From contig NZ_SMCO01000020.1 in assembly GCF_004346685.1 (NCBI RefSeq), positions 1 through 58,335 on the forward strand: a DNA stretch of 58,335 nucleotides. The letters run 5' to 3'. Source of the DNA: Sulfurirhabdus autotrophica. GTDB taxonomy: Bacteria; Pseudomonadota; Gammaproteobacteria; Burkholderiales; SMCO01. Below are positions 31,870 through 51,342 of this stretch, piece by piece. The position numbers and the translations under genes are program-made. The notes below the pieces were generated by a model. That model saw nothing but the letters and a program-made list of their open reading frames with translations. It made no database searches and had not been told where the DNA came from. The number at the start of each line of letters is the position of its first letter. Position 1 is the stretch's first letter.

Positions 31870-31916
31870 AATACATAGACTATTAAGATATTGTTTATAT
31901 TGAAGGGGTGGTGACG

Positions 31917-32597
31917 ATGGCAACCTACGCTGAAATGCGCGAAATCTTCGACGACATACGGAATGATTTTCGTTATGATCACGAGCTGAACGGCTGTTTG
32001 AACTGCGGTATCTGTACTGCAACCTGCCCATCTGCCCAATTCTATGATTACAGTCCACGTGAAATTGTTCAGTTGCTTTGGACAGAAAACATCGAGCAGA
32101 TTTACGATGCCATGCAGGAAAAAATATGGGCCTGTGCACAATGTATGACTTGTGCGGCGCGTTGCCCATTCAAGAACTCTCCTGGTGGTCTGGTAATGAT
32201 TATGCGGGAAGTTTCCATTAAGCATGGTATGCAGTCAGCCAAAGATGTGTTGCGCCCATTCGGCCGGGTTATGCTTAAGCTTATTACCACAGGAAACCAG
32301 CTCTCACCCGATATGATTCAACCGGATCACTTCCCTGACTGGGGTCCAAATATTCAAAAAGTGGAAGGTGATCTCAAAACCTTGCGTAAAGCAATTCCAG
32401 TACGCACTTTGCAGACCACAGATACTGCTTGGGAAGTCTCTCTGAAAACTTCTGTTGAGATGTACACCATTTGGGAAATGACCGGTGTATTAAGTTCCCT
32501 TGAAACCATGGATGAAAATCTCTTTGACGTTATCGAAGACTTTATCGATGAAAAGCGTGAAGAATATGAAGACTGGCTGGAAGAGCAGGAAGATTGA
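31917..32597 (+). CDS. hdrC1: sHdrC1, iron-sulfur subunit
   Basis: 226 residues from ATG 31917; the frame opens at GTG 31908, but the GAAGGGGTGG signal favours the ATG. Two [4Fe-4S] motifs are seen: C27-x2-C-x2-C-x3-C37 (GCLNCGICTATCP) and C73-x2-C-x2-C-x3-C83 (ACAQCMTCAARCP). The C-terminus is very acidic. In the sHdr complex it passes electrons between HdrA and the HdrB subunits during oxidation of LbpA-bound sulfur to sulfite. First gene of the operon. Confidence 0.93.
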   Translation: MATYAEMREIFDDIRNDFRYDHELNGCLNCGICTATCPSAQFYDYSPREIVQLLWTENIEQIYDAMQEKIWACAQCMTCAARCPFKNSPGGLVMIMREVSIKHGMQSAKDVLRPFGRVMLKLITTGNQLSPDMIQPDHFPDWGPNIQKVEGDLKTLRKAIPVRTLQTTDTAWEVSLKTSVEMYTIWEMTGVLSSLETMDENLFDVIEDFIDEKREEYEDWLEEQED

Positions 32598-32666
32598 TTC
32601 TGGAAGTGATGCGGGGCGTATGCCTTGCTAGTGGCCCCGAAAACTCAACATCAGGAGGTTAGCACA

Positions 32667-34010
32667 ATGAGTACAACCAACCAAACAGAAGGACAAGGAA
32701 TTGCCGGACACGGCTCTTTTTTCCAGGAATCCAACCTGTCCAACGAAGATGCAGCTAAAGCGACAGAATGGGTACGCAAGCATGTAGATAAGCGTACCGT
32801 CGATTTGGGTGAGCGCATGGATGATATCCGTGTGCATATGTGGGAGCTGGAAAAAGAAGGTGAAATCATTGTTCATCGTATCACCGACGATCACAAGCCC
32901 GTCGATGTGCAAACCTTGTTCGGCTGGAACAAGCGTATTCCAACCAGTCAATTGTGGCATCACAAATCCTGCGGCCAGTGCGGCAATATCCCTGGTTATC
33001 CAACATCATTGCTATGGACCATGAACAAGTTTGGTTTTGTACCTGGTAAGGATTATCTGGATGAGACTGATCAGACTTCCTGTACAGCATGGAATTATCA
33101 TGGCTCCGGTATTGGTAACGTTGAGTCACTGGCTGCAGTGTTCTTGCGAAACTTCCATCAGGCTTATGTGTCCGGTAAACAGCATGGTTTTGAACTGGGG
33201 CATTTTTTCCCGCTGGTTCACTGTGGTACCTCTTTTGGTAACTACAAGGAAATCCGCAAGTACTTGGTAGAGTCTGCTGAGTTGCGTGAGAAAGTAACAA
33301 AAATTCTGGGTAAACTTGGTCGCCTGGTTGATGGCAAGTTGGTTATTCCAGAAGAAGTCATTCATTATTCTGAATGGGTGCACGTAATGCGTAACCGCAT
33401 TGCTTCTGAGCTACAAACCATCGATGTATCAAATATTCGCGTCACTATGCACGCCGCTTGTCACTATTACAAGATGGTGCATGAAGATGCCATTTACGAC
33501 CCAACTGTGCTGGGTGGTAACCGTACGGCGGTTGGAACGTCAGTAGCGCAGGCGTTGGGAGCGCAGGTGATTGATTACTCAACCTGGTATGACTGCTGTG
33601 GATTTGGTTTCCGTCACATTATTTCAGAGCGTGAATTCACCCGTTCTTTCACCATGGATCGTAAGATTCGTGTTGTACGTGAAGAAGCTAACGCTGACGT
33701 GATGCTGGGTATTGATACCGGTTGTATTACCACCATGGACAAAAATCAATGGATTGGTAAGGCGCATGAGCAAAACTTCTCTGTGCCTATCATTGCTGAT
33801 ATTCAGTTTGCGGCTCTGGCATGCGGTGCGGATCCGTTTAAAATTGTGCAACTTCAATGGCATGCATCACCATGTGAAGAACTGGTTGAAAAGATGGGGC
33901 TATCCTGGACTGAAGCCAAAAAGACCTTCGAAAATTACCTCAAGGAAGTTGAAGCAGGCAATATCGAATATTTATATAACCCTGAATTGGCACTAGGAGG
34001 CCGTCAATAA
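32667..34010 (+). CDS. hdrB1: sHdrB1, catalytic-type CCG-domain subunit
   Basis: 447 residues from ATG 32667, behind CAGGAGG. The N-terminal part has C102, C105, C139 and C186 (SCGQCG ... TSCTAW ... VHCGTS). The C-terminal CCG domain has C265, C310-C311 (YDCCGFG) and C353, but ends in GCITT rather than the CxxC seen in HdrB2. It may therefore bind one noncubane [4Fe-4S] cluster in a modified way. It is considerably longer than HdrB2 (303). The stop overlaps hdrA by one base. Confidence 0.92.
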   Translation: MSTTNQTEGQGIAGHGSFFQESNLSNEDAAKATEWVRKHVDKRTVDLGERMDDIRVHMWELEKEGEIIVHRITDDHKPVDVQTLFGWNKRIPTSQLWHHKSCGQCGNIPGYPTSLLWTMNKFGFVPGKDYLDETDQTSCTAWNYHGSGIGNVESLAAVFLRNFHQAYVSGKQHGFELGHFFPLVHCGTSFGNYKEIRKYLVESAELREKVTKILGKLGRLVDGKLVIPEEVIHYSEWVHVMRNRIASELQTIDVSNIRVTMHAACHYYKMVHEDAIYDPTVLGGNRTAVGTSVAQALGAQVIDYSTWYDCCGFGFRHIISEREFTRSFTMDRKIRVVREEANADVMLGIDTGCITTMDKNQWIGKAHEQNFSVPIIADIQFAALACGADPFKIVQLQWHASPCEELVEKMGLSWTEAKKTFENYLKEVEAGNIEYLYNPELALGGRQ

Positions 34011-35059
34011 TGCAAAATACCGTTTTAGTGGTGGGCGCTGGCCCAACAGGCTTATCTGCTGCCGCGGGCGTTGCGTCCATAGGTAAAAAGGTTGTGCTGG
34101 TTGAGAAAGAAACTGTATTAGGCGGTGCGCCAATATTATCTGGTTACGCCAAACTGGTACCTTCCGGTGAGTGGGCAAAAGATGCGATCGGTCGTATGGT
34201 TAAGCGCGTTGAAGACGATGCAAATATCACGATTCATAAAGGCGTGAAAGTTGCCAAGCTGGAAGGTGAGGCGGGTAACTTTACCGCGACTCTTTCTAAT
34301 GGCGAGATTGTTCAGGCTGGCGCAGTTATTCTTGGTACAGGATTCACTCACTTTGATTCAATCAACAAGCCAGAGTGGGGTTTTGGTACTTATGAAGACG
34401 TTGTGACCACAACCCAGATGGAGCAGATGGTTTCAGCTGGAAAGATTGCTTGCCCGTCAGATGGTCGTGTGCCAGAACGTGTAGCGATTTTATTGTGTGT
34501 TGGTTCGCGTGATCGTCAAATCGGTCGTGAATGGTGCTCCAAGATTTGCTGTACTGTTTCTACCAATCTGGCCATGGAAATCAAGGAACTTTCACCAACA
34601 ACCGATGTGTTTATCTACTACATGGATATTCGTACTTTTGGTTTGTATGAAGACAAGTTCTACTGGAAATCCCAGGAAGAATTCAAGACTAAATTTGTCA
34701 AGGCGCGTATCGCTGAAGTGACAAAGTCAGCTGATGGTCGTTTGCTGGTGAAAGGCGAAGATACTTTGGTTAAGCGTCCTATTGTGATTCCAATGGATAT
34801 CGTGGTGCACGCAATTGGTATGGATCCAAACGAAGAAAATCCAGAAATCTCAAAAGTATTTGGTGTTGGTTTGGAAAAACACGGGTTTATCGATAAGGGT
34901 GAACAGTACACCAGCAGCTTCAGCAGCACCCGCGCAGGTGTCTATGTGGGTGGTTCTGCATTAGGCCCTGAAGATATCGACACCAGCATTTCCCACGGCT
35001 TGGCAATGGCCATGCGTGCAGTTGGTGATTTGAATGCTTTGGTTCAAAAAGCAGCCTAA
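34010..35059 (+). CDS. hdrA: sHdrA, FAD subunit
   Basis: 349 residues. The Rossmann FAD-binding motif VVGAGPTGLSAAAGVASIGKK lies at the N-terminus; four cysteines (LLCVGSRDRQ ... WCSKICC, about 160-185) can hold a [4Fe-4S] cluster; FAD-contacting segments follow in the C-terminal third. It is about half the length of methanogen HdrA, lacking its ferredoxin extensions, as is usual for sHdr. Start TAATG is coupled to hdrB1; the 3' end overlaps the next gene by 26 bases. Confidence 0.93.
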   Translation: MQNTVLVVGAGPTGLSAAAGVASIGKKVVLVEKETVLGGAPILSGYAKLVPSGEWAKDAIGRMVKRVEDDANITIHKGVKVAKLEGEAGNFTATLSNGEIVQAGAVILGTGFTHFDSINKPEWGFGTYEDVVTTTQMEQMVSAGKIACPSDGRVPERVAILLCVGSRDRQIGREWCSKICCTVSTNLAMEIKELSPTTDVFIYYMDIRTFGLYEDKFYWKSQEEFKTKFVKARIAEVTKSADGRLLVKGEDTLVKRPIVIPMDIVVHAIGMDPNEENPEISKVFGVGLEKHGFIDKGEQYTSSFSSTRAGVYVGGSALGPEDIDTSISHGLAMAMRAVGDLNALVQKAA

Positions 35060-35915
35060 AGACGTTCAGGTAATAGAGCGGGACTTAATTGTTCCGGCAG
35101 AACTGACTCTGCCGTTTGATGCAAACTTGTTTCAGCAGCATTTTTCTAATTTAAAGCATGTTGCGGAACAAGACGCTGGATTGGATGCATATATTTCAAG
35201 CATGCAATCCAAACAGAAACTGTATGCGGAAAGCTTGAATGAAGCTGCGATTGATAGTTTGAGTCTGGAAAAAATCGAAGTTTTGCTAGAGTTAGTATTT
35301 ACAGCAAGGCGACGGGTATATCCCGTATTGCAAAAAATGGGTGAGCAGCAATCTGTTTTATTGATTAAAACGCTGTTGTATGGAAATGGAATGCTGCTGG
35401 AACGTATGCAGTCATTTACCGAAGCGCTGCCAGTTGATGAAGGAGCTGATAAAGCTGGACAGAAATTGGCCGCCAAAATCAAGCGAGCTGCCTTTGATTT
35501 TGCAGCAGAAATGCTGCATTACACTGATCCAGTCAAGTATCCCTTGATGTCGCGATGGGTGTGGGATCAATCGACGGTGAGTGGTGCCTTGCGCGAATTC
35601 ATTCGGGGTAATGACCATATGGCAGAAGTGCCGCTAGGTAATAGTCCTGAAATGTTTGAAGGCGCACGCAAGTGGCTGGCAGAGCAAGTAGCGGAGCAAG
35701 GTATTTATAAAGATGTGCCGTTCTGGGTGGATATGGTGCTTGCAGATGCTTATTCCACTTACTTCCGCTCAATGGCAGAAGGGATGCTGAGTGCGGATTT
35801 CGGACGCAGTGGTGGGCCGGAAGAATACGTGAAGAAATTTCTCGGAATTGATACGATGCGTCGCAGTGGACGAACACGCGTCAAAAAAGATTCAGAAGTG
35901 CAAGTAACAAACTGA
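35034..35915 (+). CDS. sHdr-operon conserved protein of unknown function
   Basis: 293 residues, the hyp gene always found between hdrA and hdrC2 in sHdr operons. No cysteines and no known domain were recognised. It is predicted to be mostly alpha-helical and soluble (QSVLLIKTLLYGNGMLLERMQSF and similar helices). It starts inside hdrA, so translation is coupled. The constant position suggests a structural or assembly role in the complex, which is inference from family context. Confidence 0.85.
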   Translation: MLWFKKQPKDVQVIERDLIVPAELTLPFDANLFQQHFSNLKHVAEQDAGLDAYISSMQSKQKLYAESLNEAAIDSLSLEKIEVLLELVFTARRRVYPVLQKMGEQQSVLLIKTLLYGNGMLLERMQSFTEALPVDEGADKAGQKLAAKIKRAAFDFAAEMLHYTDPVKYPLMSRWVWDQSTVSGALREFIRGNDHMAEVPLGNSPEMFEGARKWLAEQVAEQGIYKDVPFWVDMVLADAYSTYFRSMAEGMLSADFGRSGGPEEYVKKFLGIDTMRRSGRTRVKKDSEVQVTN

Positions 35916-35973
35916 CAATGAATGACTACAGGACTGTGCTGGCAACAGGACTGAAATTAATTGGAGAGAATAG

Positions 35974-36744
35974 ATGGCTATTCATGAAAAAACACTCATC
36001 GACGCGGATCGTTTAATCACTAGCGACAAGCTGGTAGTAGATGGTGTGGATGTTTCAGGTCACTGGAACACGATGATCCTTCCGCGTACGCTGACGGATT
36101 ACGATGATGATTTTGAAGCTAAAATTCAGACCTACGATGGTGCTGAAAATGTACATCGCTGCTGGCAGTGTGGATCTTGCACAAACTCTTGCACCATGTA
36201 TGCGCAAAATACAGACTTTAATCCACGTTACTGGATCTATCTCACTCGTTTGGGACTAAAAGATGAAATTCTGAAAGACAAAGATATTATCTGGCAGTGC
36301 GTTTCTTGCAACAAATGTACAAATATTTGTCCCAAAGATGTCCGACCTGAAGGTGTGATGAAAGCTTTGGCGCACTGGATAGAAGAGGAAGGCTTTGGGC
36401 CCAAATCAAATTCAACCATTTTTGATGAAGAATTTGCGCGTCAGTGTCTGGATCGTGGTCGCATAGAAGATTCTGAAGTGATGTCCAATTTCTTTAAGAA
36501 CACCAAGCAGGATATCGTGCAAATGGCTTTGCATGGCTGGTTAGGTATCTTTGTAGCACGTATGAACAAATGGACTGAGCTGAAAAAAGGGAATATTGGT
36601 AAATTCCTGGCACGTGTGCCAATCATGCACCCTATCCATATGGGATTGTCGATGGTGATCAAGCCTAAAACCAAATCGTGGGGTCGTACCGGTGAAGTGT
36701 TAAGGCAGTATGTGAAAGAGCAAAAGGAGATGGCGCATGGCTAA
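35974..36744 (+). CDS. hdrC2: sHdrC2, iron-sulfur subunit
   Basis: 256 residues with two classical [4Fe-4S] motifs: C63, C66, C69, C73 (RCWQCGSCTNSC) and C109, C112, C115, C119 (QCVSCNKCTNICP). It starts behind TTGGAGAG. It resembles true HdrC more closely than HdrC1 does and forms a pair with HdrB2; the two genes overlap by eight bases. Expected to carry electrons within the cytoplasmic sHdr complex. Confidence 0.93.
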   Translation: MAIHEKTLIDADRLITSDKLVVDGVDVSGHWNTMILPRTLTDYDDDFEAKIQTYDGAENVHRCWQCGSCTNSCTMYAQNTDFNPRYWIYLTRLGLKDEILKDKDIIWQCVSCNKCTNICPKDVRPEGVMKALAHWIEEEGFGPKSNSTIFDEEFARQCLDRGRIEDSEVMSNFFKNTKQDIVQMALHGWLGIFVARMNKWTELKKGNIGKFLARVPIMHPIHMGLSMVIKPKTKSWGRTGEVLRQYVKEQKEMAHG

Positions 36745-37648
36745 AGTTGCATACTATCCAGGTTGCGCCCTGGAAGGTTCAGGCGGTCCGTATGATCGAT
36801 CCACACGTGTTTTGGTAAAGAGTTTGGGCCTGGAGATGGAAACACTTCAGGACTGGAATTGCTGTGGAGCGATGGAAGTCAAGAACGTTCATCCTATGCT
36901 GCAAACCTATATGTCTGCTCGGAATATGGCGATTGCCAGTGAGCAGATGGGTTATGATACGGTGATGGCGCCTTGCAATGGTTGCTACCACAATCTTAAG
37001 AAAGCAGAGTATGAGCTGGCTACTTCTGAAGATTCCCTCAAGACTGTGCAGGATTTAGCTAAAAAAGCCGATGATCCAGTTTACAAAGGTGATGTCAGGA
37101 CGGTTCACTTGCTAGAGTGGCTCATGGAAGAATTGGGAACGGAAGGTATCAAACAGAAGATTTCCAAGTCCTTGAATGGTATCAAGGTCGCAAATTATTA
37201 CGGTTGCATGTATACCCGACCACGCCAGATATTCCCGGAGAAAGATCAGGGGCCTGGCTCTGAATCCAGCTATAAGCCGCACTTCATGGATGATTTGCTG
37301 GCAGCAGCAGGTGCCGTGAATGTAGACTATCCACTGAAAACTGCATGTTGTGGCGGTGCACACACGTTGTCAGATTCTGATACTTCTACACAACTGGTGC
37401 TGAATTTATTGCAGGCAGCAGAAGATGCAGGTGCGGAAGTGATTGCTACAGAATGCCCAACCTGCCACTCCGGTCTGGAAATGCATCAGGTTCGTGCAGA
37501 AACAGAATTTGGCATCAAGACAGATGTAAAGATTGTATACTTCACTCAATTGCTGGGTCTCGCGATGGGTTTGTCAGCTCGTAAATTGGGTATCCATGAA
37601 AATGTCAGTGATTCTCTGGATTTTCTAAGCGACAAAGGCGTATTGTAA
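36737..37648 (+). CDS. hdrB2: sHdrB2, CCG-domain catalytic subunit
   Basis: 303 residues with two complete CCG motifs: C10, C42-C43, C80, C83 and C157, C204-C205, C240, C243 (YYPGC, NCCGAM, APCNGC; YYGCMY, ACCGGAH, ECPTC). In HdrB these bind two noncubane [4Fe-4S] clusters that act on disulfides. It is the probable site where the LbpA-bound sulfur species is processed. The start overlaps hdrC2. A hairpin follows before lbpA1. Confidence 0.94.
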   Translation: MAKVAYYPGCALEGSGGPYDRSTRVLVKSLGLEMETLQDWNCCGAMEVKNVHPMLQTYMSARNMAIASEQMGYDTVMAPCNGCYHNLKKAEYELATSEDSLKTVQDLAKKADDPVYKGDVRTVHLLEWLMEELGTEGIKQKISKSLNGIKVANYYGCMYTRPRQIFPEKDQGPGSESSYKPHFMDDLLAAAGAVNVDYPLKTACCGGAHTLSDSDTSTQLVLNLLQAAEDAGAEVIATECPTCHSGLEMHQVRAETEFGIKTDVKIVYFTQLLGLAMGLSARKLGIHENVSDSLDFLSDKGVL

Positions 37649-37735: not shown

Positions 37736-38182
37736 ATGGAATGTAACGGCTGCGAGTTTCGACCAGAGTTGTACTATGATGATCAATATCAGATCTGGGT
37801 CAGACGTGAAGAAGACGGTACCTTTACAATAGGTATGACAGATATCTCGCAAAGTATTGCAGGCAAAATTCTCCATGTGAGAGTGCGCAAGCCCGGTACG
37901 CTGCGTCCGAATGGCAAGCCGGTTGCGACGATTGAAAGTGGAAAATGGGCAGGCCCTGTACCAAATGTGTTTGATTGTGTCATAGTAGAGGCCAACCATA
38001 CTGTACTGGAAGATCCTAATTTGCTGAATATCGAACCTTACGAAGCGTGGATTGCACGGGTTAAACCATCTGGGTCTATTGAAGATTCATTGTCGGTTTT
38101 AGTGTCAGGGGACGTTGCGCAAGCTGGATATTGCGAGCGCACTCAACGTGACGATATTCATTGCGAAAGAGGAGCAAGGTAA
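37736..38182 (+). CDS. lbpA1: LbpA1, lipoate-binding protein of the sHdr pathway
   Basis: A 148-residue GcvH-like protein with a lipoyl domain. The lipoylated lysine is K70 in ESGKWAGP. The N-terminus has the signature GCEFRPELYYDDQYQIWVRR, close to LbpA2. The C-terminal tail after residue 120 differs from LbpA2 and ends CERTQRDDIHCERGAR. LbpA proteins carry sulfur intermediates for sHdr and are not part of glycine cleavage. The stop overlaps the dsrE3 start (TAATG). Confidence 0.9.
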   Translation: MECNGCEFRPELYYDDQYQIWVRREEDGTFTIGMTDISQSIAGKILHVRVRKPGTLRPNGKPVATIESGKWAGPVPNVFDCVIVEANHTVLEDPNLLNIEPYEAWIARVKPSGSIEDSLSVLVSGDVAQAGYCERTQRDDIHCERGAR

Positions 38183-38577
38183 TGGGAGAAGAACATTACC
38201 TGGATAACGATGAAAAATCAGTTGTTATCGTTATGACCAGTGGCCCATCAACCGCTCACCGTTGTGCTACCCCGTTTTACATTGGCTCGATCCTGGCTTC
38301 CATGGATTCGGATGTCAGCGTTTTCTTCACAATGGAAGGCGCGCTTTTGGCTAAAAAAGGCGTCGCTGATAATTTGACTGCCATGAAAGGTGGCAAGACA
38401 ATTTTAGAATTTATTCGCGACGCGAAGATTGCTGGTGTAAAATTTCACTTATGCAAACCGGCCATGCCAGGTTACGAAATAGAAGTTGACGATGTCATTC
38501 CAGAAATAAATGAAATCTCCAATGCAAGTAAATTGGCAGATTTGATTTTAAGTTGTGATAAGGCATTGTTTTTCTAA
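38182..38577 (+). CDS. dsrE3: DsrE3-type sulfurtransferase
   Basis: 131 residues from ATG 38182, behind AGGAG. It has a DsrE-like fold with VVIVMTSGPSTAHRC and the likely reactive cysteine C91 in FHLCKPAMPGYEI; C28 is a second. It sits between the two lbpA genes, so it may pass sulfur directly to LbpA, which is inference. Its TAATG overlap makes its translation depend on lbpA1. Confidence 0.85.
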   Translation: MGEEHYLDNDEKSVVIVMTSGPSTAHRCATPFYIGSILASMDSDVSVFFTMEGALLAKKGVADNLTAMKGGKTILEFIRDAKIAGVKFHLCKPAMPGYEIEVDDVIPEINEISNASKLADLILSCDKALFF

Positions 38578-38645: not shown

Positions 38646-39083
38646 ATGGCAACAGTACGTGGGTGTAACCTTCCTGATGACCTGTTCTATAACGTTGACA
38701 ATAATGTCTGGGCACGCCGCGAAGGTGATGGCACGCTGACCATTGGTATGACTGCCTATGCATGCTCACTGGCTGGCGAAATTGTTTCTTACACCCCTAA
38801 AAAAGTGGGTAAATCAATTGATCAAAACAAATCCGTAACCACGGTTGAGTCTGGCAAGTGGGTAGGCCCGGTTAAGGCACCTGTAGCGGGTGAAATTCTG
38901 GCTATCAACGATGCCGTTGCTGCAAAGCCTGGCAGCATCAATGCTGATCCTTATGCTAGTGGCTGGCTGGTGAAGCTGAAGCCTTCAAACTGGGAGGGCG
39001 AGTCTGCCGGTCTGGTTACTGGTGGTGCTGTTGCTACAGCATTTGAAGCGAAAATGAATGCTGACGGTTTTGGCGGTTGTTAA
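38646..39083 (+). CDS. lbpA2: LbpA2, lipoate-binding protein of the sHdr pathway
   Basis: A 145-residue GcvH-like lipoyl protein with K71 in ESGKWVGP. It shares with LbpA1 the N-terminal pattern GCNLPDDLFYN...VWARREGDGTLTIGMT. It ends in GFGGC, with an extra terminal cysteine absent from ordinary GcvH. A good GAGGAG site precedes ATG 38646. A stem-loop at 39128-39151 follows, separating it from lipS1. Confidence 0.92.
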   Translation: MATVRGCNLPDDLFYNVDNNVWARREGDGTLTIGMTAYACSLAGEIVSYTPKKVGKSIDQNKSVTTVESGKWVGPVKAPVAGEILAINDAVAAKPGSINADPYASGWLVKLKPSNWEGESAGLVTGGAVATAFEAKMNADGFGGC

Positions 39084-40394: not shown

Positions 40395-40524
40395 TTCGCA
40401 GCACTTATTTCAACGGATATACATATTGTTGAAATGTTGAATTTTGATTCAGGTGTGATTCATCCTGTGGATAGTTCGAAATTTATAATCGTTGTTGCCC
40501 AAGCGGCGTACGTGCTTTATTTAT

Positions 40525-44058: not shown

Positions 44059-44215
44059 GGTAAAGGATTAACAAAGAGTGCCGATATAAAAACCGGTGCT
44101 TTAAAATTTGGCTTTAAAGCTAATTCAAAAAACGATACATAAATCCCAACTATTTTAAAATTACTTAGCAATTTAACAATATACAAATGCAGCACTTAAT
44201 TAGTTGGAGAAATAC

Positions 44216-45448
44216 ATGAAATTTAAGAAATTGATTGGCATGATGGCAATTGCAGGTATGGCTGCCCCTGGTATTGCTTCGGCCACAAATGGCTACTTTG
44301 CTGAAGGTTATGGTATTAAGACGCGTGGTATGGGTGGTGCAGGAATTGCGCTTCCTCAAGATGCTATGGCGGCTGCTACCAACCCTGCAGGTATGGTGAT
44401 GGTGGGTGGCCGGTTGGATATTGGGTTAACCTACTTTCAACCTGATCGTTCAGTTATTCTGGGTCCGAATGGAGTGGGAGCAAATCCAACTATTGGCACA
44501 GGTGAATATACAAGTGATAACAAGTATTTTCTGATTCCGGAAGTGGGCTACAACCATATGCTTAATAAAGACATGGCGCTTGGTGTCGTGGTTTACGGTA
44601 ATGGTGGTCTTAACACAAAATACAATAAACCCTTGTTTTCTCAAGGTGGCAGTGCATCAAACGCTTCCAGTGACATGTTGCAATTGTTTGTTGCACCAAC
44701 ATGGTCAATGAAAATAAATGAAAACAACGCAATTGGTGTAAGTCTGAATTTGGTATACCAACAATTTTCAATCAGTGGATTGGAAGGCTTTGCTGGTAAG
44801 TCGAGCGATAGTGTGAATCTGACCGGTAACGGGCATGACAAGTCCACAGGTTATGGATTGAAATTGGGTTGGACTGGAAAGGTGGCGCAAAACGTTACTT
44901 TAGGGGCTACTTATCAAACCTTAACCAAGATGTCCAAGTTTGATAAATACAAGGGCATGCTAGCTGAAGGAGGTTCGCTGGATATACCATCGACTTATGG
45001 ATTGGGCATTGCTGTTGATGTAACGCCGAGCATGATCATCGCTGCAGACGTGGTGCGAATCAATTACGGTGATGTAAAGGCGCTCAATAATCCGGGCAGT
45101 AATCAAGCTTTGCTGGGCACGGATAATGGACCCGGTTTTGGCTGGAATGATCAGACCGTCTACAAATTAGGTTTGTCATATAAATATTCACCAGGCCTGA
45201 CTTTGCGGGCTGGCTACAACTATGCCAAAGCACCATTTAATAGTGACCAAAACTATTTCAACTTTGTTGCGTTGGCAACCACAGAATCCCATCTAAGTTT
45301 GGGTGCAACCTGGGTTCTAGCCGATAAATCTGAATTATCGTTAATGTACATGCATGCATTTGATAAGGGTATGTATAGTTCTGCGACAGATAGCACCATC
45401 CGGATGAAGCAGGATGCTATTGGTATTGCTTACGGACTGAAAATGTAA
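44216..45448 (+). CDS. FadL/OmpP1-type outer membrane porin, copy 1
   Basis: 410 residues from ATG 44216 with a signal peptide (MKFKKLIGMMAIAGMAAPGIASA). The FadL N-terminal hatch follows: NGYFAEGYGIKTRGMGGAGIALPQDAMAAATNPAGM. The rest is beta-rich and ends in YGLKM, as for outer membrane barrels. The FadL family takes up hydrophobic compounds. It is 158 bases after lipS2 and followed by a terminator. It is a close paralogue of the gene at 45698. Confidence 0.88.
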   Translation: MKFKKLIGMMAIAGMAAPGIASATNGYFAEGYGIKTRGMGGAGIALPQDAMAAATNPAGMVMVGGRLDIGLTYFQPDRSVILGPNGVGANPTIGTGEYTSDNKYFLIPEVGYNHMLNKDMALGVVVYGNGGLNTKYNKPLFSQGGSASNASSDMLQLFVAPTWSMKINENNAIGVSLNLVYQQFSISGLEGFAGKSSDSVNLTGNGHDKSTGYGLKLGWTGKVAQNVTLGATYQTLTKMSKFDKYKGMLAEGGSLDIPSTYGLGIAVDVTPSMIIAADVVRINYGDVKALNNPGSNQALLGTDNGPGFGWNDQTVYKLGLSYKYSPGLTLRAGYNYAKAPFNSDQNYFNFVALATTESHLSLGATWVLADKSELSLMYMHAFDKGMYSSATDSTIRMKQDAIGIAYGLKM

Positions 45449-45472
45449 AACGCTCAGTAAGCTTGATAATTT

Positions 45473-45508
45473 AAAAATGGGCTGAACAAAGTGTTCAGCC
45501 CATTTTTT
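45473..45508 (+). terminator. Terminator after porin copy 1
   Basis: A 16-base-pair stem (AAAAATGGGCTGAACA and TGTTCAGCCCATTTTT) around three bases, with flanking A and T runs. Confidence 0.92.
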
Positions 45509-45531
45509 GTCATAAGTGGTAAAAACGCGAG

Positions 45532-45549
45532 TGTTGCATTTGTGCAACA
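45532..45549. promoter_or_regulatory. Inverted repeat upstream of porin copy 2
   Basis: TGTTGCA-TTTG-TGCAACA, a perfect seven-base inverted repeat about 40 bases upstream of the predicted -35. Candidate regulator site. Confidence 0.35.
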
Positions 45550-45586
45550 TGCTACCGGTATAAATAGACTAATGGCTGCAAATGAG

Positions 45587-45614
45587 TTGTCAAAGAAGTG
45601 AGATTTTGTAATAT
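45587..45614 (+). promoter_or_regulatory. Predicted promoter of porin copy 2
   Basis: TTGTCA (45587-45592), a 16-base spacer and TAATAT (45609-45614). Predicted start near 45621, leader about 77 bases. Confidence 0.5.
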
Positions 45615-45697
45615 TAGTACCCATTCACGGCTGTTCTATGAATGATAAAAAAATTTAAAAAACGAGTCGGTACTCAACCCAATTTGTCGGAGGAAAC

Positions 45698-46894
45698 ATG
45701 AAACTTAAAAAACTGATCGGAATTATGGCTATAGCGGGCTTGGCAGTTCCTGGAATTGCTTCTGCAACCAATGGTTACTTTTCACATGGTTATGGTATTA
45801 AAGCGAAAGGTATGGGCGGTGTAGGGATTGCGCTTCCACAAGATGCGCTGGCTGCTGCCACTAATCCTGCCGGTATGGCTATGGTAGGTGATCGTGTTGA
45901 TTTTGGCGTGGATTATTTTAGCCCTAAGCGCACAGCTACTTTTGGAGCGGGTCTGCCAGTTGCCGCCGGTAACTATGAAAGTGGCTCTACAAGCTTCTTT
46001 GTACCAGAATTTGGTTATAATAAAATGATCAGTTCTGACATGTCTGTAGGTGTTTCGGTTTTTGGTAACGGCGGAATGAACACAGATTACAACACTGGCT
46101 TACTATCACAAGGTGGTGCAGTTTCTAAGACCAACAGTAATCTTGAACAACTTTTCATTGCTCCTACATGGGCGATGAAGATAAATCCAAATCATGCTAT
46201 TGGTGTGTCATTGAATTTAGCCTATTCAACCTTCAAGGCTGAAGGGCTTGAAGGATTTGGAATTCCAAACCATGGTAAGGATACATCTACAGGTTATGGT
46301 TTGAAGTTGGGCTGGACTGGAAAAATTGCGTCGAACGTGACTATGGGTGCTACCTATCAAAGCAAGACCAAGATGAAAGATTTCTATAAATATAGTGATT
46401 TGTTCGCAGGTCGTGGCAGTTTTGATATTCCTGAAACCTACGGTATAGGTATTGCGTTTGACGTCAATCCTCAGACAGTGATTGCTGCTGATGTTGTTCA
46501 GATTAATTATGGCGGTATCAGAGCTCTGGCAAACGTTCAAACCAACACATGTGCTTTAGGTTCGGATTGTGGTTCTGGTTTCGGCTGGAAAGATACAACC
46601 GTGTATAAGTTGGGCGTATCTCATGCACTCAGCAAAGACCTGACTTTGCGTGCTGGTTACAACTATGCTAAAGCACCATTTGATGGAACTCAAACCTATT
46701 TCAACATTTTAGCTCCAGCAACTGTTGAACAGCATTTGACACTGGGCGCAACTTGGACTTTGGCTAACAAAGCAGAGTTAAGCGTTTCTTATATGCATGC
46801 GTTTAACAAAGAAATTAAGAGTACAACAGCTACGCCAGTTAATTTGAAAATGTCTCAAGATGCACTTGGCATTGCTTACGGTTGGAAGATGTAA
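45698..46894 (+). CDS. FadL/OmpP1-type outer membrane porin, copy 2
   Basis: 398 residues starting at ATG 45698, after CGGAGGAAAC. Signal peptide MKLKKLIGIMAIAGLAVPGIASA and hatch NGYFSHGYGIKAKGMGGVGIALPQDALAAATNPAGM are nearly the same as in copy 1; the loops differ (shorter around residues 70-90 and 190-200). Copy 2 has two cysteines in a loop (NTCALGSDCGSG) absent from copy 1. Own promoter and terminator. Its likely job is import of a hydrophobic or sulfur-containing substrate, which is inference from location. Confidence 0.88.
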   Translation: MKLKKLIGIMAIAGLAVPGIASATNGYFSHGYGIKAKGMGGVGIALPQDALAAATNPAGMAMVGDRVDFGVDYFSPKRTATFGAGLPVAAGNYESGSTSFFVPEFGYNKMISSDMSVGVSVFGNGGMNTDYNTGLLSQGGAVSKTNSNLEQLFIAPTWAMKINPNHAIGVSLNLAYSTFKAEGLEGFGIPNHGKDTSTGYGLKLGWTGKIASNVTMGATYQSKTKMKDFYKYSDLFAGRGSFDIPETYGIGIAFDVNPQTVIAADVVQINYGGIRALANVQTNTCALGSDCGSGFGWKDTTVYKLGVSHALSKDLTLRAGYNYAKAPFDGTQTYFNILAPATVEQHLTLGATWTLANKAELSVSYMHAFNKEIKSTTATPVNLKMSQDALGIAYGWKM

Positions 46895-46926
46895 TTTGAT
46901 AGAAAGCGTTTGAATCTATAAATGCT

Positions 46927-46963
46927 AAAAAAGGCCGAAAGCTTTGCTTTCGGCCTTTTTTTT
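46927..46963 (+). terminator. Terminator after porin copy 2
   Basis: AAAAAAGGCCGAAAGC-TTT-GCTTTCGGCC followed by eight T: a strong rho-independent terminator. Confidence 0.95.
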
Positions 46964-47105
46964 ACCAAATTCCCTCTGGTATAGAGGGCTAGGATAGGTT
47001 AGTATCAAAATACTGATCCTTGCTTATCGGGCAAGGAATAGATACAAGCCAAGTATGCTGGAAAAGCATGTCGGTTTCACAAAATAAATCTGTACTGGAG
47101 GCACA

Positions 47106-48020
47106 ATGAACTCATTAATTAAATCATTCTTTCTCATGGCTTTAATGTTGCTGGGTATAGCAACAGCAATGGCCGATGATGTATTAAAACCATTTATCCT
47201 CGGCTCCAAAGGACCAGGAACGGTTGCGGAAAAAGTGGATCTTGCCAAGAAAGCGTTAACTGAACAGGGTTTTGCGATTGCGGGCACCTATTCTCCATAC
47301 CCAGGCGCCACTATTCTGATTGTGACCAATGACGAGTTGAAGCGTAATGCAGCGCAATCTGAGCACGGCGGTTTCGGTGCAATGCAGCGTGTTTCTGTCA
47401 CGAAAGTGAGTGATGAAGTACAGGTGTCTTACACAAATCCGGTTTACCAGGCGAACGCTTACCGTATGAAAGGTGATTTAAAGAGCGTGGCAGATAAGCT
47501 GGGCACGGCTTTAGGCAAGATCGAAGAGTTTGGTGCGCGCGGTTTAACAGCTCGCCAACTTCGTAAATACCATTATATGGTGGGTATGGAGTATTTTGAT
47601 GAGCCTAGCTTGCTGGCTGAATACGATAGTTATGAAGAAGCTATCAAAGGTGTTGAGGCAGGGCTTGCCGCCGGTAAAGGCGGCGTAAGCAAGGTTTATC
47701 GCATTGATATTCCTGGTAAGAAAGAAGCTGTGTTTGGAGTCGCTCTCAAGGGTGGTGAAAACAAATACATGGATGATAAATTCATTATGAGCGAAATTGA
47801 TTTCAAGGATGTGAAATCAACAGCGCATTTACCTTATGAGATGCTTGTTGCTGGAAATAAAGTGTATGCGCTTTATGCACGTTTCCGTATTGCTACCAGC
47901 TTTCCGGATTTGGCAATGATGGGTAAAAATAGTTTCATGAATATCATGAAGTCACCTGAGGAAATTCGTAAAGCGCTTGTTACGGCTGCAGGTGGAAAAG
48001 AAGAAAAATCCATGTGGTAA
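47106..48020 (+). CDS. Secreted DUF302-like protein, copy 1
   Basis: 304 residues with a signal peptide (MNSLIKSFFLMALMLLGIATAMA). The mature part has the DUF302-like pattern: AEKVDLAKKALTEQGFAIAGTYSPYPGATILIVTND, then VSVTKVSDEVQVSYTNPVYQANAYRM. A second alpha/beta half starts around residue 155 (YHYMVGMEYFDEPSLLAEYDSYEEAIKGVEAGL). No cysteines, no metal motif seen. Start behind TGGAGG. It precedes a paralogue by 72 bases, so the two form a unit. Function unknown. Confidence 0.75.
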   Translation: MNSLIKSFFLMALMLLGIATAMADDVLKPFILGSKGPGTVAEKVDLAKKALTEQGFAIAGTYSPYPGATILIVTNDELKRNAAQSEHGGFGAMQRVSVTKVSDEVQVSYTNPVYQANAYRMKGDLKSVADKLGTALGKIEEFGARGLTARQLRKYHYMVGMEYFDEPSLLAEYDSYEEAIKGVEAGLAAGKGGVSKVYRIDIPGKKEAVFGVALKGGENKYMDDKFIMSEIDFKDVKSTAHLPYEMLVAGNKVYALYARFRIATSFPDLAMMGKNSFMNIMKSPEEIRKALVTAAGGKEEKSMW

Positions 48021-48092
48021 TAGAATGTGGCGTTTTATGAAAGTCACATAACGAAAATACTGTTTATCAAAATTGTATATTGGAGACAAAAA

Positions 48093-48986
48093 ATGAAAAA
48101 ATATCTGATTTTGCTTGCGATGCTGATTTGGGCGCCAATAGCACTTGCTGTCACCCCCTATATTTATGGGGATAAAGTAAATGGTGGTGATATAAAGTCA
48201 ACCATGGCGCAAGTTGAAAAGAAAGTCGCAGCGGAAGGATTTTCCGTCATTGGGCACCATTATCCAGCCGGTATGTCTCAGTATTATGGCGTGTTGATTG
48301 TGACTGATAAAGGGATTCTTGATGCCATTCGTTCAATGGGTGGTGCTGCAATTGTAGGCGCAGCAATTCGTATTGGTGTGCGTTCTGATGGAACGGTTTC
48401 TTATATGAATCCTGATTACTGGTACAGAGCGTACTTCCGTAAGCAGTTTAGTTCTGCTGAAGGCGCCGTGAAAGCGGTTAAGGAGAAGTTAAGTAGTGCT
48501 TTGGGTGCTGGTAAGGGTTTTGGTGGAGATGAAAAGCCTGACTCATTAGCCAACTATCGTTACATGGTAGGGATGGAAAAGTTTGATTCAGATAAAAATG
48601 AGTTGAAGTCCTATCCTAGTTTTGAGTCTGCCGTGAAAGCTGTGCAGGACAATTTGGCTAAAGGCAAAAATACAACTTCAAAATCCTATGAAGTGATCAT
48701 GGCAGATAAAAAAATTGCTGTGTTTGGCGTGGCGATGAATGACCCTAAAACGGGTGAAAGCTGGTTTGTGAAGAAAATCGGTTCGGACAATATTGCTGCT
48801 TTGCCTTACGAGATATATGTAGTGAACGGTAAAGTCAATGCGTTATATGGACGTTATCGCCTTGCATTGGCCTGGCCTAATCTGGGTATGGGGACCTTCA
48901 TGGGCATCAGCGATGCGCCAGATGAGATTCTTGAAACGTTGACAGGTGTGGCTGGTGGTATTTACGAGAAATCCAGCGCGTTTTAA
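48093..48986 (+). CDS. Secreted DUF302-like protein, copy 2
   Basis: 297 residues from ATG 48093 (TTGGAGAC upstream), with a signal peptide ending ALA-VTPY. It aligns along its whole length with copy 1: KVAAEGFSVIGHHYPAGMSQYYGVLIVTD, YMNPDYWYRAYF, YRYMVGMEKFDSDKNELKSYPSFESAVKAVQDNL, LPYEIYVVNGKVNALYGRYRLALAWPNLGMG. Both share a C-terminal stretch resembling RFRIATSFPDLAMMG. Likely a tandem duplication that has since diverged. A small hairpin terminator follows. Confidence 0.75.
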   Translation: MKKYLILLAMLIWAPIALAVTPYIYGDKVNGGDIKSTMAQVEKKVAAEGFSVIGHHYPAGMSQYYGVLIVTDKGILDAIRSMGGAAIVGAAIRIGVRSDGTVSYMNPDYWYRAYFRKQFSSAEGAVKAVKEKLSSALGAGKGFGGDEKPDSLANYRYMVGMEKFDSDKNELKSYPSFESAVKAVQDNLAKGKNTTSKSYEVIMADKKIAVFGVAMNDPKTGESWFVKKIGSDNIAALPYEIYVVNGKVNALYGRYRLALAWPNLGMGTFMGISDAPDEILETLTGVAGGIYEKSSAF

Positions 48987-49016: not shown

Positions 49017-49044
49017 AACACCCGCTTCGGCGGGTTTTGTTTTT
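49017..49044 (+). terminator. Terminator after the DUF302-like pair
   Basis: A CCCGC-TTCG-GCGGG hairpin with a stable tetraloop followed by TTTTGTTTTT. Confidence 0.85.
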
Positions 49045-49202: not shown

Positions 49203-49598
49203 ATGAAGCAAATTAAAGTAACCGATGTTGGCCAAATCAAGAACGAACTTAATAAGTATAAAAAAGGCAAAAAGCTGGATATTCGCCAGTTTAATCAGGT
49301 GGCGAGGTTGGCTTGGCTCGGTAAAATAACTATGTCACCTTTAGACGCGGAGGACCCACAATGCGAGTCCTGGTTATTACATTTGCAACATCCTGAAGGA
49401 TTGGCGGAGCATTTTTTGACGCTGGATGAAGATCTGATGTCGCAAATCCATATTCTGGATAGAGAACAAGGTCGATACCTTGCCGAAATTTTGCAACAAG
49501 GCATAGAAGAGCGCGTCGGACAGTTGAAGACATTGAACCAGCGCGATTTTTACTTTGGTAAGTTTTTTAAATCGGATGAGCAAAAAGAGTCACTGTAA
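49203..49598 (+). CDS. Hypothetical protein, 131 residues, in the second-ligase cluster
   Basis: Not recognised. A soluble, charged protein with mainly helical segments, for example RQFNQVARLAWLGKITMSPLDAEDP and LAEILQQGIEERVGQLKTLNQRDFYFGKFF. It has one cysteine (C57, PQCESWLLHLQHPEG) and no TM or signal. It begins with MKQIKVTDVGQIKNELNKYKKGKK. It lies 46 bases before the ligase-like gene in the same direction, so it is probably co-expressed with it. The ATG follows a weak AGGAAG site. Confidence 0.65.
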   Translation: MKQIKVTDVGQIKNELNKYKKGKKLDIRQFNQVARLAWLGKITMSPLDAEDPQCESWLLHLQHPEGLAEHFLTLDEDLMSQIHILDREQGRYLAEILQQGIEERVGQLKTLNQRDFYFGKFFKSDEQKESL

Positions 49599-49644
49599 TC
49601 CACGTGCATAGGTTGCTCTCTACCCTCGATTCCTTCAATAACTA

Positions 49645-50646
49645 ATGCGTTCGGCTGCCCGTTGGATTGATATCGGTCTGGTTGCACCTGCAACATTTCA
49701 TGCGACTTATGCGGGGTTGGCAGATCATCAGGTGGCTAATGCTGCCCCGATTTTACTCTGGGGCAGAACCACTGAACATATATGTCTGGGGCAACATCAG
49801 AATTTGATGGCGGAACTTGCGCAACCTCTTGAGGTGCCGGTATTGCAACGTCCGTTAGGGGGTGGCACGGTATGGGTAGATGAATTTCAATATTGTTTTG
49901 TATTGATTGTGCCGCTTGAATTGCTGCCGGGTCGGCCTCAGGAATGGTTCGAATGGGGATTGGCCCCTATGTTAGCCACTTACAGGCGGTTTGGCATGGA
50001 AGTGGAGCTTCATGCGCAAGACGTCTGGCTGGATGGCCGTAAAATTGGGGGAAGCGGTGCTGCGACAATCGGAAATTGTGCTGTACTGGCAAGTAGCTTT
50101 CTGATGCATTTTCCAATAGCACATTTTGTGCAGTGTATTGCTTGCCCTACTGAAGGTTTTCGTAATTGGATGGCCGAAGCGTTAAGTGTAGCGATGACAG
50201 ATTGGCAAAGTCATCAGTCTGTGCCGGATGAATCGGTACTCGTGAAAGTGTTTTGGGATAGTCTTCAAGCAGGCCTGAAGTGGGATTTTATTCAGTCAGC
50301 GTTATCCGCAGATGAGGTTCTTGCTCGAGATGCAGTACTTCCTGAATTAGCTGAGCTGGACGCATCAAATGGCAAACGGCTGGTACCTGATGGTATTAAG
50401 CTCAATGCTCGTACTTTTCTCACTGAAAAGCATGATGGCACAAACTGGGTAAGAGTGCTGACTGTAGATGGAAAATTCTCTCGCATCATGTTGTCTCGCG
50501 TTTTATCTGCGGAACAATTGGAAAAACTGGTTTTATCCAGCCCAACAATTGAAGCTTTGCAAGCTGAACTGATACTGATGATGCCGTTGGGTGAAGCGGA
50601 ATATTGGGCAGCATTGATAATGAACACCGCGTTTATCAGTGCTTAG
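49645..50646 (+). CDS. Second lipoate:protein-ligase-like protein
   Basis: 333 residues of BPL/LPL catalytic fold, distinct from the ligase at 40525. The motifs are VLQRPLGGGTVWVDE (67-80, the RRxxGGG loop altered to RPLGGG) and DVWLDGRKIGGSGAA (126-140, with K133 in the lysine position of LplA). The C-terminal part from about residue 245 (TNWVRVLTVDGKFSRIMLS) recalls the LplB-like accessory domain. The protein may transfer lipoate or octanoate to LbpA, or do a related acyl transfer. ATG 49645 has no strong ribosome binding site. Confidence 0.75.
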   Translation: MRSAARWIDIGLVAPATFHATYAGLADHQVANAAPILLWGRTTEHICLGQHQNLMAELAQPLEVPVLQRPLGGGTVWVDEFQYCFVLIVPLELLPGRPQEWFEWGLAPMLATYRRFGMEVELHAQDVWLDGRKIGGSGAATIGNCAVLASSFLMHFPIAHFVQCIACPTEGFRNWMAEALSVAMTDWQSHQSVPDESVLVKVFWDSLQAGLKWDFIQSALSADEVLARDAVLPELAELDASNGKRLVPDGIKLNARTFLTEKHDGTNWVRVLTVDGKFSRIMLSRVLSAEQLEKLVLSSPTIEALQAELILMMPLGEAEYWAALIMNTAFISA

Positions 50647-50687
50647 TGCTCGTTGTGAACGAACGTAATAAATAACAGGTAATTGAA

Positions 50688-51071
50688 ATGGCTATACCAA
50701 CTATAGACTCCCGTCTGCAGAAAAAAATGATTGTAATGACGCGAGATGAAGATTTGCTGGCTTCCCTGCAAGCAGGGCTGCCTGCAGGGTGGGAAATGGT
50801 TGTTACGCTGGATCTGGAAGATTTAGGCGGTTTTCAGGATATTCTGCAACATCGATTTATTTTGCTCGATCTTGATGAGTATGATGCATTTGATCCGTTG
50901 GATGTCATACGTATGGTTCGGATGGAGTTAATGCTCAATGTGCCGATTTTTTGTTTTGGGGGCGAGCCGGATGTGCGAGATGAGGCGAGATTATCCCGGG
51001 CAGACCGTTTCTTTGAGCGTGATGAAATCGTCGGCAAGATGAAGTTGTTTTGCCAGCAATATGAGTGGTAG
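50688..51071 (+). CDS. Degenerate response-regulator receiver-like protein
   Basis: 127 residues with a CheY-like pattern: KKMIVMTRDEDLLASLQAGLP, RFILLDLDEYDAFDPLDVIRMVR (a possible phospho-acceptor at D61 or D63), then NVPIFCFGG and ADRFFERDE. The lysine that normally follows the fifth strand is replaced by Glu/Arg, and the acidic pocket before the first helix is only partly kept. No output domain and no kinase gene nearby. It may be a protein-interaction module. It is 41 bases after the ligase-like gene. Confidence 0.65.
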   Translation: MAIPTIDSRLQKKMIVMTRDEDLLASLQAGLPAGWEMVVTLDLEDLGGFQDILQHRFILLDLDEYDAFDPLDVIRMVRMELMLNVPIFCFGGEPDVRDEARLSRADRFFERDEIVGKMKLFCQQYEW

Positions 51072-51078
51072 ATAGTTC

Positions 51079-51342
51079 ATGGCTATAAAGCTGGATATTC
51101 GATTGGGCGGTAGTTATAGCAACGGTGAGTTTGGTAACCGCTGGGTTGTTCGGCAGATCATCTCAATTACAACTGCAAGAGATGAAATCGAGTCTGAGAG
51201 TGTCACTTTTAAGGTACTGGTTGGTCCGGGCAGGCGCAGTAAAGGAAGCTGTACTTTGGTCGAATTTGAAAAATGGGCCAGGCACGAAGTGGTGCGAAAT
51301 GAAAATAGCTGGGGGCGTGTTGAGGTAGAAAGTGACGTCTGA
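51079..51342 (+). CDS. Hypothetical protein, 87 residues
   Basis: Not recognised. A small soluble protein, likely beta-rich at the start (IKLDIRLGGSYSNGEFGNRWVVRQIISI) and basic around GPGRRSKGSC, with a helical middle (TLVEFEKWARHEVVR). It begins seven bases after the receiver-like gene, so it is translationally close to it and part of the same four-gene unit. It is convergent with valS. Confidence 0.6.
   Translation: MAIKLDIRLGGSYSNGEFGNRWVVRQIISITTARDEIESESVTFKVLVGPGRRSKGSCTLVEFEKWARHEVVRNENSWGRVEVESDV

Follow-up and report, generated by a model that had tools for sequence, protein, structure and literature searches.

Three conserved genes that accompany LbpA1-bearing type I sHdr systems

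Why some sHdr systems utilize two lipoate-binding proteins, LbpA1 and LbpA2, and what the first of these adds to the second are questions to which we know of no answer. They are raised again by a contig of Sulfurirhabdus autotrophica (NZ_SMCO01000020.1, positions 1 to 58,335; this whole stretch of 58,335 nucleotides is referred to below as the window), where an LbpA1-bearing type I sHdr operon and a set of lipoate genes are followed by four open reading frames (ORFs) on the same strand, here designated X1 to X4, one of which encodes a second protein with a lipoate-ligase fold. Do these ORFs constitute a unit, and is that unit connected with the lipoate-binding proteins? As described below, X1, X2 and X3 represent a real and conserved trio that is tied to a single form of a pathway already known and that is apparently undescribed. 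The four ORFs are:

49203..49598, + strand: X1, 131 amino acids (aa), family not recognized, most constant member of the module
49645..50646, + strand: X2, 333 aa, lipoate-ligase fold, RPLGGG loop, Lys133 present, Asn of the NDI motif lost
50688..51071, + strand: X3, 127 aa, at best a divergent receiver-like protein; Asp20 and Asp61 present, Arg111 at the presumed lysine position, Cys89 mostly conserved
51079..51342, + strand: X4, 87 aa, outside the conserved module

A sequence-only reading of this DNA had taken all four ORFs, seven to 46 bases apart, for a single cluster that includes the ligase-like protein. The ORFs are real, and the gaps are 46 (X1-X2), 41 (X2-X3) and 7 bases (X3-X4). Conservation was examined in samples of 200 genomes from the order, 303 from the class and 150 from the phylum, the window genome being included in each count. 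X1 was detected in 34 genomes in total, namely 15 of the order (the window genome and 14 others), 18 further genomes in the class and one, G500, in the phylum sample; counts of trio loci (n = 33) comprise all X1 genomes except G500. In the order sample X1, X3 and strong matches to X2 (223 bits or more) are found in the same 15 of 200 genomes, as neighbors on one strand; altogether 33 order genomes matched X2, including 16 with weak matches only (≤40 bits), which were set aside as other LPL proteins, and two with relics (G102 and G058, see below), which were also left out of the counts. In the class and phylum samples X2 and X3 were looked for within the X1 loci, and X2 additionally in two sets of 12 and 11 chosen genomes. 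X3 adjoins X1 or follows X2 in all 19 class genomes that contain X1, with X2 in between in 15 of them. Spacing within the trio is tight, mostly −4 to +46 bases. X2 is present in 29 of the 33 trio loci; in the other four, X1 and X3 are adjacent without it, separated by 3 (G405), −4 (G389), −4 (G493) and 11 bases (G305). Because X1 and X3 stay together in these loci, they form the core of the unit and X2 is its usual third member; the ligase-like protein thus belongs to the cluster, but its most constant part is X1 with X3. Conservation in 14 further order genomes and 18 class genomes makes the trio ORFs far more than chance ORFs.

The fourth ORF has a different distribution. X4 occurs in 18 of the 200 order genomes and, among the 15 trio genomes, only in that of the window, which rules out a four-gene cluster; only the first three genes are conserved as a unit, and X4 belongs elsewhere, where it can adjoin lip operons without sHdr (loci L141-L143). 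In the window X4 is probably co-transcribed with the trio, since it starts 7 bases after X3. In two genomes, G010 and G089, one extra gene stands between X2 and X3. The extra gene before X3 (8071-8946 in L043 of G010; 12756-13481 in L047) shows weak FecR matches, below cut-off, in both loci, which represent two families of the order, and that of L043 also shows a weak Tat-signal match, below cut-off.

The distribution of X1 orthologs (15 of 200, 19 of 303 and 2 of 150 genomes in the order, class and phylum samples) coincides with that of the LbpA1-type sHdr system. All 15 order genomes with this system contain X1, and none of the 185 others does; for the class the figures are 19 of 19 with and 0 of 284 without the system, and for the phylum sample 2 of 2 (G500 besides the window genome) and 0 of 148. 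The order genomes concerned are exactly those with sHdrB2 at ≥86% identity, and those of the class exactly those at ≥83%, HdrB-like matches at ≤36% identity not being counted as sHdrB2 in any of the three samples. In G500 sHdrB2 is only 72% identical, yet the operon carries lbpA1-dsrE-lbpA2 and X1 is present. X1 is absent from all seven genomes with LbpA2-only type I sHdr (G045, G054, G058, G099, G365, G502 and G549), which have B2 at 65–69% identity and a single LbpA visible in the operon. A tree of 75 LbpA proteins separates LbpA1 from LbpA2, each group being supported at 100/100, and places the single LbpA of each of the seven genomes in LbpA2. A dsrE relative was detected in 33 of the 34 X1 genomes and, in the loci in which it was annotated, sits between lbpA1 and lbpA2. 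The contrast extends to members of one genus: G089 contains LbpA1 and the trio, whereas its congener G045 contains an LbpA2-only operon and no trio, and G354 contains LbpA1-type sHdr and the trio, whereas its congener G464 contains neither. G077 possesses the trio and two sHdr copies, the LbpA1-type operon and one whose B2 is 69% identical. A scan of named genomes returned a single match (Pseudomonas, 26 residues), taken for chance.

Within the samples there is no known exception to the rule that X1 is present if and only if an LbpA1-type sHdr system is, and the association of the trio with this form of sHdr is considered secure, with high confidence. The connection with LbpA and sHdr that had been suspected from the sequence therefore holds for the LbpA1-bearing form, but not for LbpA or sHdr at large, given the seven LbpA2-only genomes without X1. 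The wide occurrence in genomes lacking lbpA and shdr that had been named beforehand as counter-evidence was not seen in any of the three samples.

Ordinary linkage is ruled out as the sole cause of this co-occurrence, because in at least 11 of the 33 genomes the trio and the sHdr operon are found at separate locations. Three of these are on the same contig as sHdrB2 at distances of 529 kb (G159), 200 kb (G218) and 35 kb (G305), and eight are on separate contigs, at least ∼19 kb apart however the contigs are joined (G120, G195, G033, G078, G046, G460, G349 and G438). Seventeen trios are linked, 16 with B2 within 15 kb on the same contig and that of G389 via slpl-lipT-lipS2; five (G032, G090, G325, G345 and G405) are assignable to neither class, although for G032 linkage is probable, the contigs breaking within lipS2. 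Two genomes of the same family as G010, G102 and G058, are devoid of LbpA1-type sHdr and possess only X2 relatives of 174 and 184 aa, near valS, a gene that also neighbors the trio in the window. These relatives have lost the RPLGGG loop, their reading frames are still open (L050, 9427-9951; L051, 3565-4119), and differences by codon position are compatible both with a decayed gene and with a shortened functional one. We read this as joint loss of the trio and the LbpA1-type sHdr system.

Upstream of the trio the window contains the sHdr and lip genes and, between these and X1, a group of FadL-like and secreted-looking proteins; the names dsrE, lipS1 and lipT follow published operon order (PMC6382920; PMC10332631) and not a hidden Markov model of that name.

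31908..37648, + strand: type I sHdr operon shdrC1-B1-A-hyp-C2-B2; Fer4, CCG and FAD domain matches, gene order as published
37736..38182, + strand: lbpA1 (lipoate-binding protein 1); GCV_H E 3.5e-30, LbpA1 clade 100/100
38161..38577, + strand: dsrE-like gene between lbpA1 and lbpA2, name by published operon order
38646..39083, + strand: lbpA2 (lipoate-binding protein 2); GCV_H E 7.2e-35, LbpA2 clade 100/100
39216-40394, + strand: lipS1; Radical_SAM match, name by published gene order
40492-41619, + strand: slpl; LplA-B_cat match
41683-42750, + strand: lipT; GG-reductase family match, name by published gene order
42916-44058, + strand: lipS2; LipS2-type match, below its cut-off
44204-48986: a pair of FadL-like porins, then two ∼300-aa proteins that look secreted, between the lip genes and the four ORFs
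49020..49035, + strand: intrinsic-terminator-like stem and T run, separating the trio from the upstream FadL and secreted-protein genes

The terminator-like stem is weak taken alone (one found versus 2.2 expected by shuffling), and no promoter-like site was found on the + strand. The two secreted-looking proteins (47106-48986), which are related to each other and follow the FadL genes, have no Pfam match and resemble DUF302 by eye only; in many loci (L117, L119-L122, L128, L129, L132-L134 and others) relatives of them precede X1. A specific tie between the trio and the genes at 44204-48986 is ruled out, since relatives of these accompany lip operons without sHdr or the trio. In the loci concerned, L141 (G034), L143 (G079) and L142 (G044), lipS1-slpl-lipT-lipS2 is found with FadL, a secreted ∼300-aa protein and X4, and no sHdrB2 above 33% identity was found in the genome; in L141 and L143 lbpA2 is visible, preceded by a rhodanese and a DsrE-like gene. 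These loci apparently represent a lipoate set without sHdr.

X2 is an LPL-domain protein (PF21948, E 5.2e-16, 59.6 bits versus a cut-off of 27). Its AlphaFold model (mean predicted local distance difference test score, pLDDT, 92.9) has as its best solved match the Thermoplasma lipoate-protein ligase A (2ars, Ta LplA; Z 27.5, root-mean-square deviation [rmsd] 2.1 over 225 residues), and also matches Escherichia coli LplA (Z 22.3), LipB (2qhs, Z 21.2) and biotin ligases (∼Z 13). The C-terminal part (residues 250–328), a possible counterpart of the accessory, LplB-like domain of such ligases, was barely covered by the fold search but comprises confident strands and helices in the window model; the end of X2 is truncated in G010 and G089. 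Where the sLpl of the window has RRITGGG, X2 has QRPLGGG, and the lysine is present, in agreement with the earlier description of an LPL fold with an altered RPLGGG loop and an intact lysine motif. Among 29 X2 rows, Lys133, GGG and His45 are each found in all 29, and the loop is RPLGGG in 26, RPVGGG in one and RRETGGG in two (L133 and L134), the latter being the only rows that comply with the lipoate-binding loop RR-x-[ST]-GGG; the Thr/Ser of the loop has been replaced by Leu/Val in 27. The Asn of the NDI motif is lost in 27 of 29 with the Asp kept, whereas Asn is kept in 43 of 44 sLpl rows. Asp126 is invariant in 15 of 15 X2 proteins, and among 15 no Cys is invariant that could correspond to the catalytic cysteine of LipB, LipM and LipL.

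In a tree of 81 LPL rows (two genes enter twice through overlapping loci, L037/L172 and L126/L171), the trio X2 proteins and the two relics form one clade at 100/99, which is set off from the 44 sLpl rows and a generic LplA, the branch between measuring 2.6 changes per site. Its nearest neighbors are five unlinked ligases that retain ND, some of them weakly placed. Inside the clade L133 and L134, with RRETGGG and NDL, branch first, and for this reason X2 probably entered the trio as a ligase-like protein and changed later; the retention of the changed loop in nearly all X2 proteins favors a new task over decay. Mean distances are 1.24 for X2, 0.80 for X3, 0.74 for X1, 0.65 for sLpl, 0.40 for LbpA1 and 0.18 for B2, X2 evolving about twice as fast as sLpl. 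The genomes whose X1-X3 locus lacks X2 possess relatives elsewhere, at 222 (G493), 202 (G389), 194 (G305) and, in G405, only 78 bits, and G438 has, besides its trio X2, an extra X2-like copy (176 bits). Such unlinked relatives were not counted as trio X2, being basal to the trio clade and retaining NDI or NDV, and their neighbors (fumarase, PGI, an ABC protein, an anion transporter) point to no shared theme. In G405, locus L150 (contig C24, 8107-10393) is separate from the sHdr operon and groups three genes next to one that resembles purL by eye: they encode a third LbpA-like protein related to GcvH (149 aa, ESGKWAG motif), a regulator judged Crp-like by eye, and a ligase related to X2 in which NDI is canonical.

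X1 is without a trusted relative in sequence or structure. It has no Pfam match at E≤1 and no NCBIfam match at E≤0.1; X4 likewise has no Pfam match at E≤1, and both had already been described as unrecognized small proteins. Profile comparisons yielded weak matches, the best in the PDB being a phycobilisome-complex protein (E 0.0072) and the best of scattered Pfam matches, seen with one member, having E 0.0068. The 34 X1 sequences share 17 identical columns. The AlphaFold model (mean pLDDT 85.8) contains a pair of helices at the N-terminus, three strands, one long helix and short ones, and its best structural match, at Z 4.5 only, neither shows nor excludes a new fold.

X3 is at best a divergent receiver, judging from its profile, which matches response regulators weakly (3lte, E 0.0012; CtrA, E 0.0083); no Pfam receiver match was found at E≤5 among 15 members, and the window X3 has no Pfam match at E≤1. 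Residues identical in 33 of 33 sequences include Asp20, Asp61, Asp69, Pro70, Gly91, Gly92, Asp106 and Arg107. The receiver positions were assigned by eye, Asp61 being placed opposite CtrA's LLDL strand in the profile alignment. On this assignment the presumed phospho-acceptor is Asp61 (33/33), the presumed Thr/Ser position is occupied by Gly91 (33/33), and the presumed Lys position by Arg111 in 32 and by His in one, consistent with the receiver lacking the conserved lysine that had been proposed earlier. Cys89 (50952-50954 in the window), with which the presumed fourth strand ends, is kept in 30 of 33 sequences, a suggestive feature in the context of sulfur oxidation. No kinase or output domain was recognized beside the trio within the window.

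It is tentatively proposed, at somewhat less than even confidence, that X1-X2-X3 constitutes an undescribed accessory module of LbpA1-bearing type I sHdr systems, with X1 and X3 as its core and X2 as a re-tooled ligase that handles or reads the lipoyl arm of LbpA. X1 and X3 would probably form a small core complex, since their genes stay adjacent even without X2. X2 would have joined them as a near-canonical ligase and then altered its substrate loop and lost the Asn beside the conserved Asp, retaining Lys, Asp and GGG; this combination suggests that X2 still encounters acyl or lipoyl groups, either taking part in a different reaction or serving as a holder. LbpA1, or the LbpA1-DsrE-LbpA2 set, would be the likeliest client because the trio is tied exactly to LbpA1-type operons. 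X2 would hold or remodel the lipoyl-lysine arm (transfer, removal or presentation) and would not repeat the ATP-dependent lipoylation by sLpl, and X1 and X3 would dock X2 and set the timing of its action. A plain second ligase does not seem to be needed, since the sLpl of Thioalkalivibrio has been reported to modify both LbpA1 and LbpA2 in vitro (PMC6067878).

Several observations weigh against this proposal. In G500 X1 is found without X2 or X3 beside it (X3 was searched in that locus only), and the best LPL protein outside the sHdr operon, at 84 bits, is a canonical one. Four of 33 genomes have an X1-X3 locus that lacks X2, and an lbpA1 gene was identified in all X1 genomes but G389 (33 of 34), which is unassembled in that region. 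LbpA1, the intervening DsrE and the B2 subtype vary together, such that LbpA1 is not singled out, and the mirror-tree approach is not decisive as a pointer to LbpA1, which is not favored: distance-matrix correlations corrected for B2 are, for X1, highest with LipS1 (0.56), X3 (0.56) and DsrE (0.55), and 0.43 with LbpA1; for X3, 0.48 with DsrE, 0.42 with LbpA2 and 0.34 with LbpA1; and for X2, 0.40 with LbpA2 and 0.08 with LbpA1. Finally, the retention of Lys, Asp and GGG in X2 fits an active ligase equally well.

The last point is the basis for an alternative in which X2 would be an ATP-dependent lipoate/octanoate:LbpA ligase beside sLpl, with a specificity of its own and aided or regulated by X1 and X3. 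The fold, the presence of Lys133 and GGG in all X2 proteins seen and of Asp126 in 15 of 15, the confident C-terminal domain of the model, and the proximity of the nearest X2-like ligase of G405 to a third, LbpA-like gene are all in accord with this. It is nevertheless thought unlikely, as the Asn of NDI, kept by sLpl, and the Thr/Ser of the loop have each been lost in 27 of 29 X2 proteins, X2 evolves about twice as fast as sLpl and is truncated in two genomes, and sLpl already modifies both LbpAs in vitro (PMC6067878). If X2 were instead a pseudo-ligase that reads the lipoylation of LbpA, with X3 relaying the signal by protein contact, the trio could serve as a checkpoint for sHdr complex assembly. 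The invariant Asp20 and Asp61 of X3 combined with Gly and Arg at the presumed Thr/Ser and Lys positions, and the maintenance of RPLGGG in 26 of 29 X2 proteins despite the loss of Asn, point in that direction, but a pure reader need not retain the catalytic Lys and GGG, the receiver assignment of X3 is weak, and no kinase or output domain was recognized nearby; the probability of such a checkpoint is judged to be rather low.

It is also conceivable that the module serves the sulfur-transfer or iron-sulfur side of the system, for example DsrE-LbpA1 loading or subunit assembly, with no lipoate chemistry and with X2 as a scaffold only. X1 and X3 are constant and X2 is missing from some loci, the corrected correlations of X1 and X3 are higher with DsrE than with LbpA1, and X3 has its cysteine in 30 of 33 sequences. 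The presence of a Lys-intact protein of lipoate-ligase fold in 29 of 33 loci would then be a coincidence, and this explanation is regarded as quite improbable. A lipoyl-state control device, in which X2 handles the lipoyl arm of LbpA1, X1 holds X2 and X3 acts as the gate, so that LbpA1 would be armed only when sulfur flows, is a doubtful suggestion; here the X3 cysteine could sense sulfane sulfur, the acceptor Asp being kept. The accessory module with a re-tooled ligase would provide an example of a lipoate ligase recruited to a new task, and a module that appears exactly with LbpA1 offers three named proteins with which to ask what LbpA1 adds, Hyphomicrobium denitrificans, the genetic model, having been studied through LbpA2 (PMC10332631).

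In comparison with known systems, the window shares with the published group I or type I sHdr clusters, as far as described in the available parts of the papers, the order shdrC1B1AhypC2B2-lbpA1-dsrE-lbpA2, followed by lipS1-slpl-lipT-lipS2 (PMC6067878; PMC6382920; PMC10332631; PMC11582611). X1-X3 are not mentioned in the same portions of running text, figures and supplements being outside this scope, nor was a description of such a trio found in the LbpA, sHdr and lipoate-ligase literature as far as available, although an unlabeled gene in cluster drawings is possible; the earlier view of the genes as undescribed has been borne out so far.

With the lipoate-protein ligases (Ta0514/Ta LplA, Enterococcus LplA-1 and LplA-2, and E. 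coli LplA), X2 has in common the fold (Z 22 to 27.5 over 212–239 residues, one further row aligning 280 residues at rmsd 12.1), but it is only 13–17% identical to them and keeps neither the canonical loop nor the Asn. LipB, LipM and the amidotransferase LipL belong to the same fold family (LipB 2qhs, Z 21.2). They work through an acyl-enzyme on a catalytic Cys, a mechanism that X2, which has no invariant Cys (n = 15), does not share. X3 resembles CheY-like receivers in its weak profile match and in the presumed acceptor Asp and one acidic residue, but differs from them in Arg for Lys and Gly for Thr/Ser (by eye) and in the absence of an output domain and of a Pfam receiver match. Receivers whose action is not based on phosphorylation can have such altered Thr/Ser and Lys positions. 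Another relative is sLpl(AB), the lipoate:protein ligase of the sHdr-LbpA system (sLpl-LipS1/S2 pathway), which belongs to the same domain family as X2, is of similar length, acts in the same pathway and often lies in the same neighborhood, with GGG, Lys and Asp in common. X2, however, forms a clade of its own (100/99, branch 2.6), has RPLGGG where sLpl has RRITGGG, has lost the Asn of NDI, is accompanied by X1 and X3, and is found only in genomes with LbpA1-type sHdr, save for two truncated copies.

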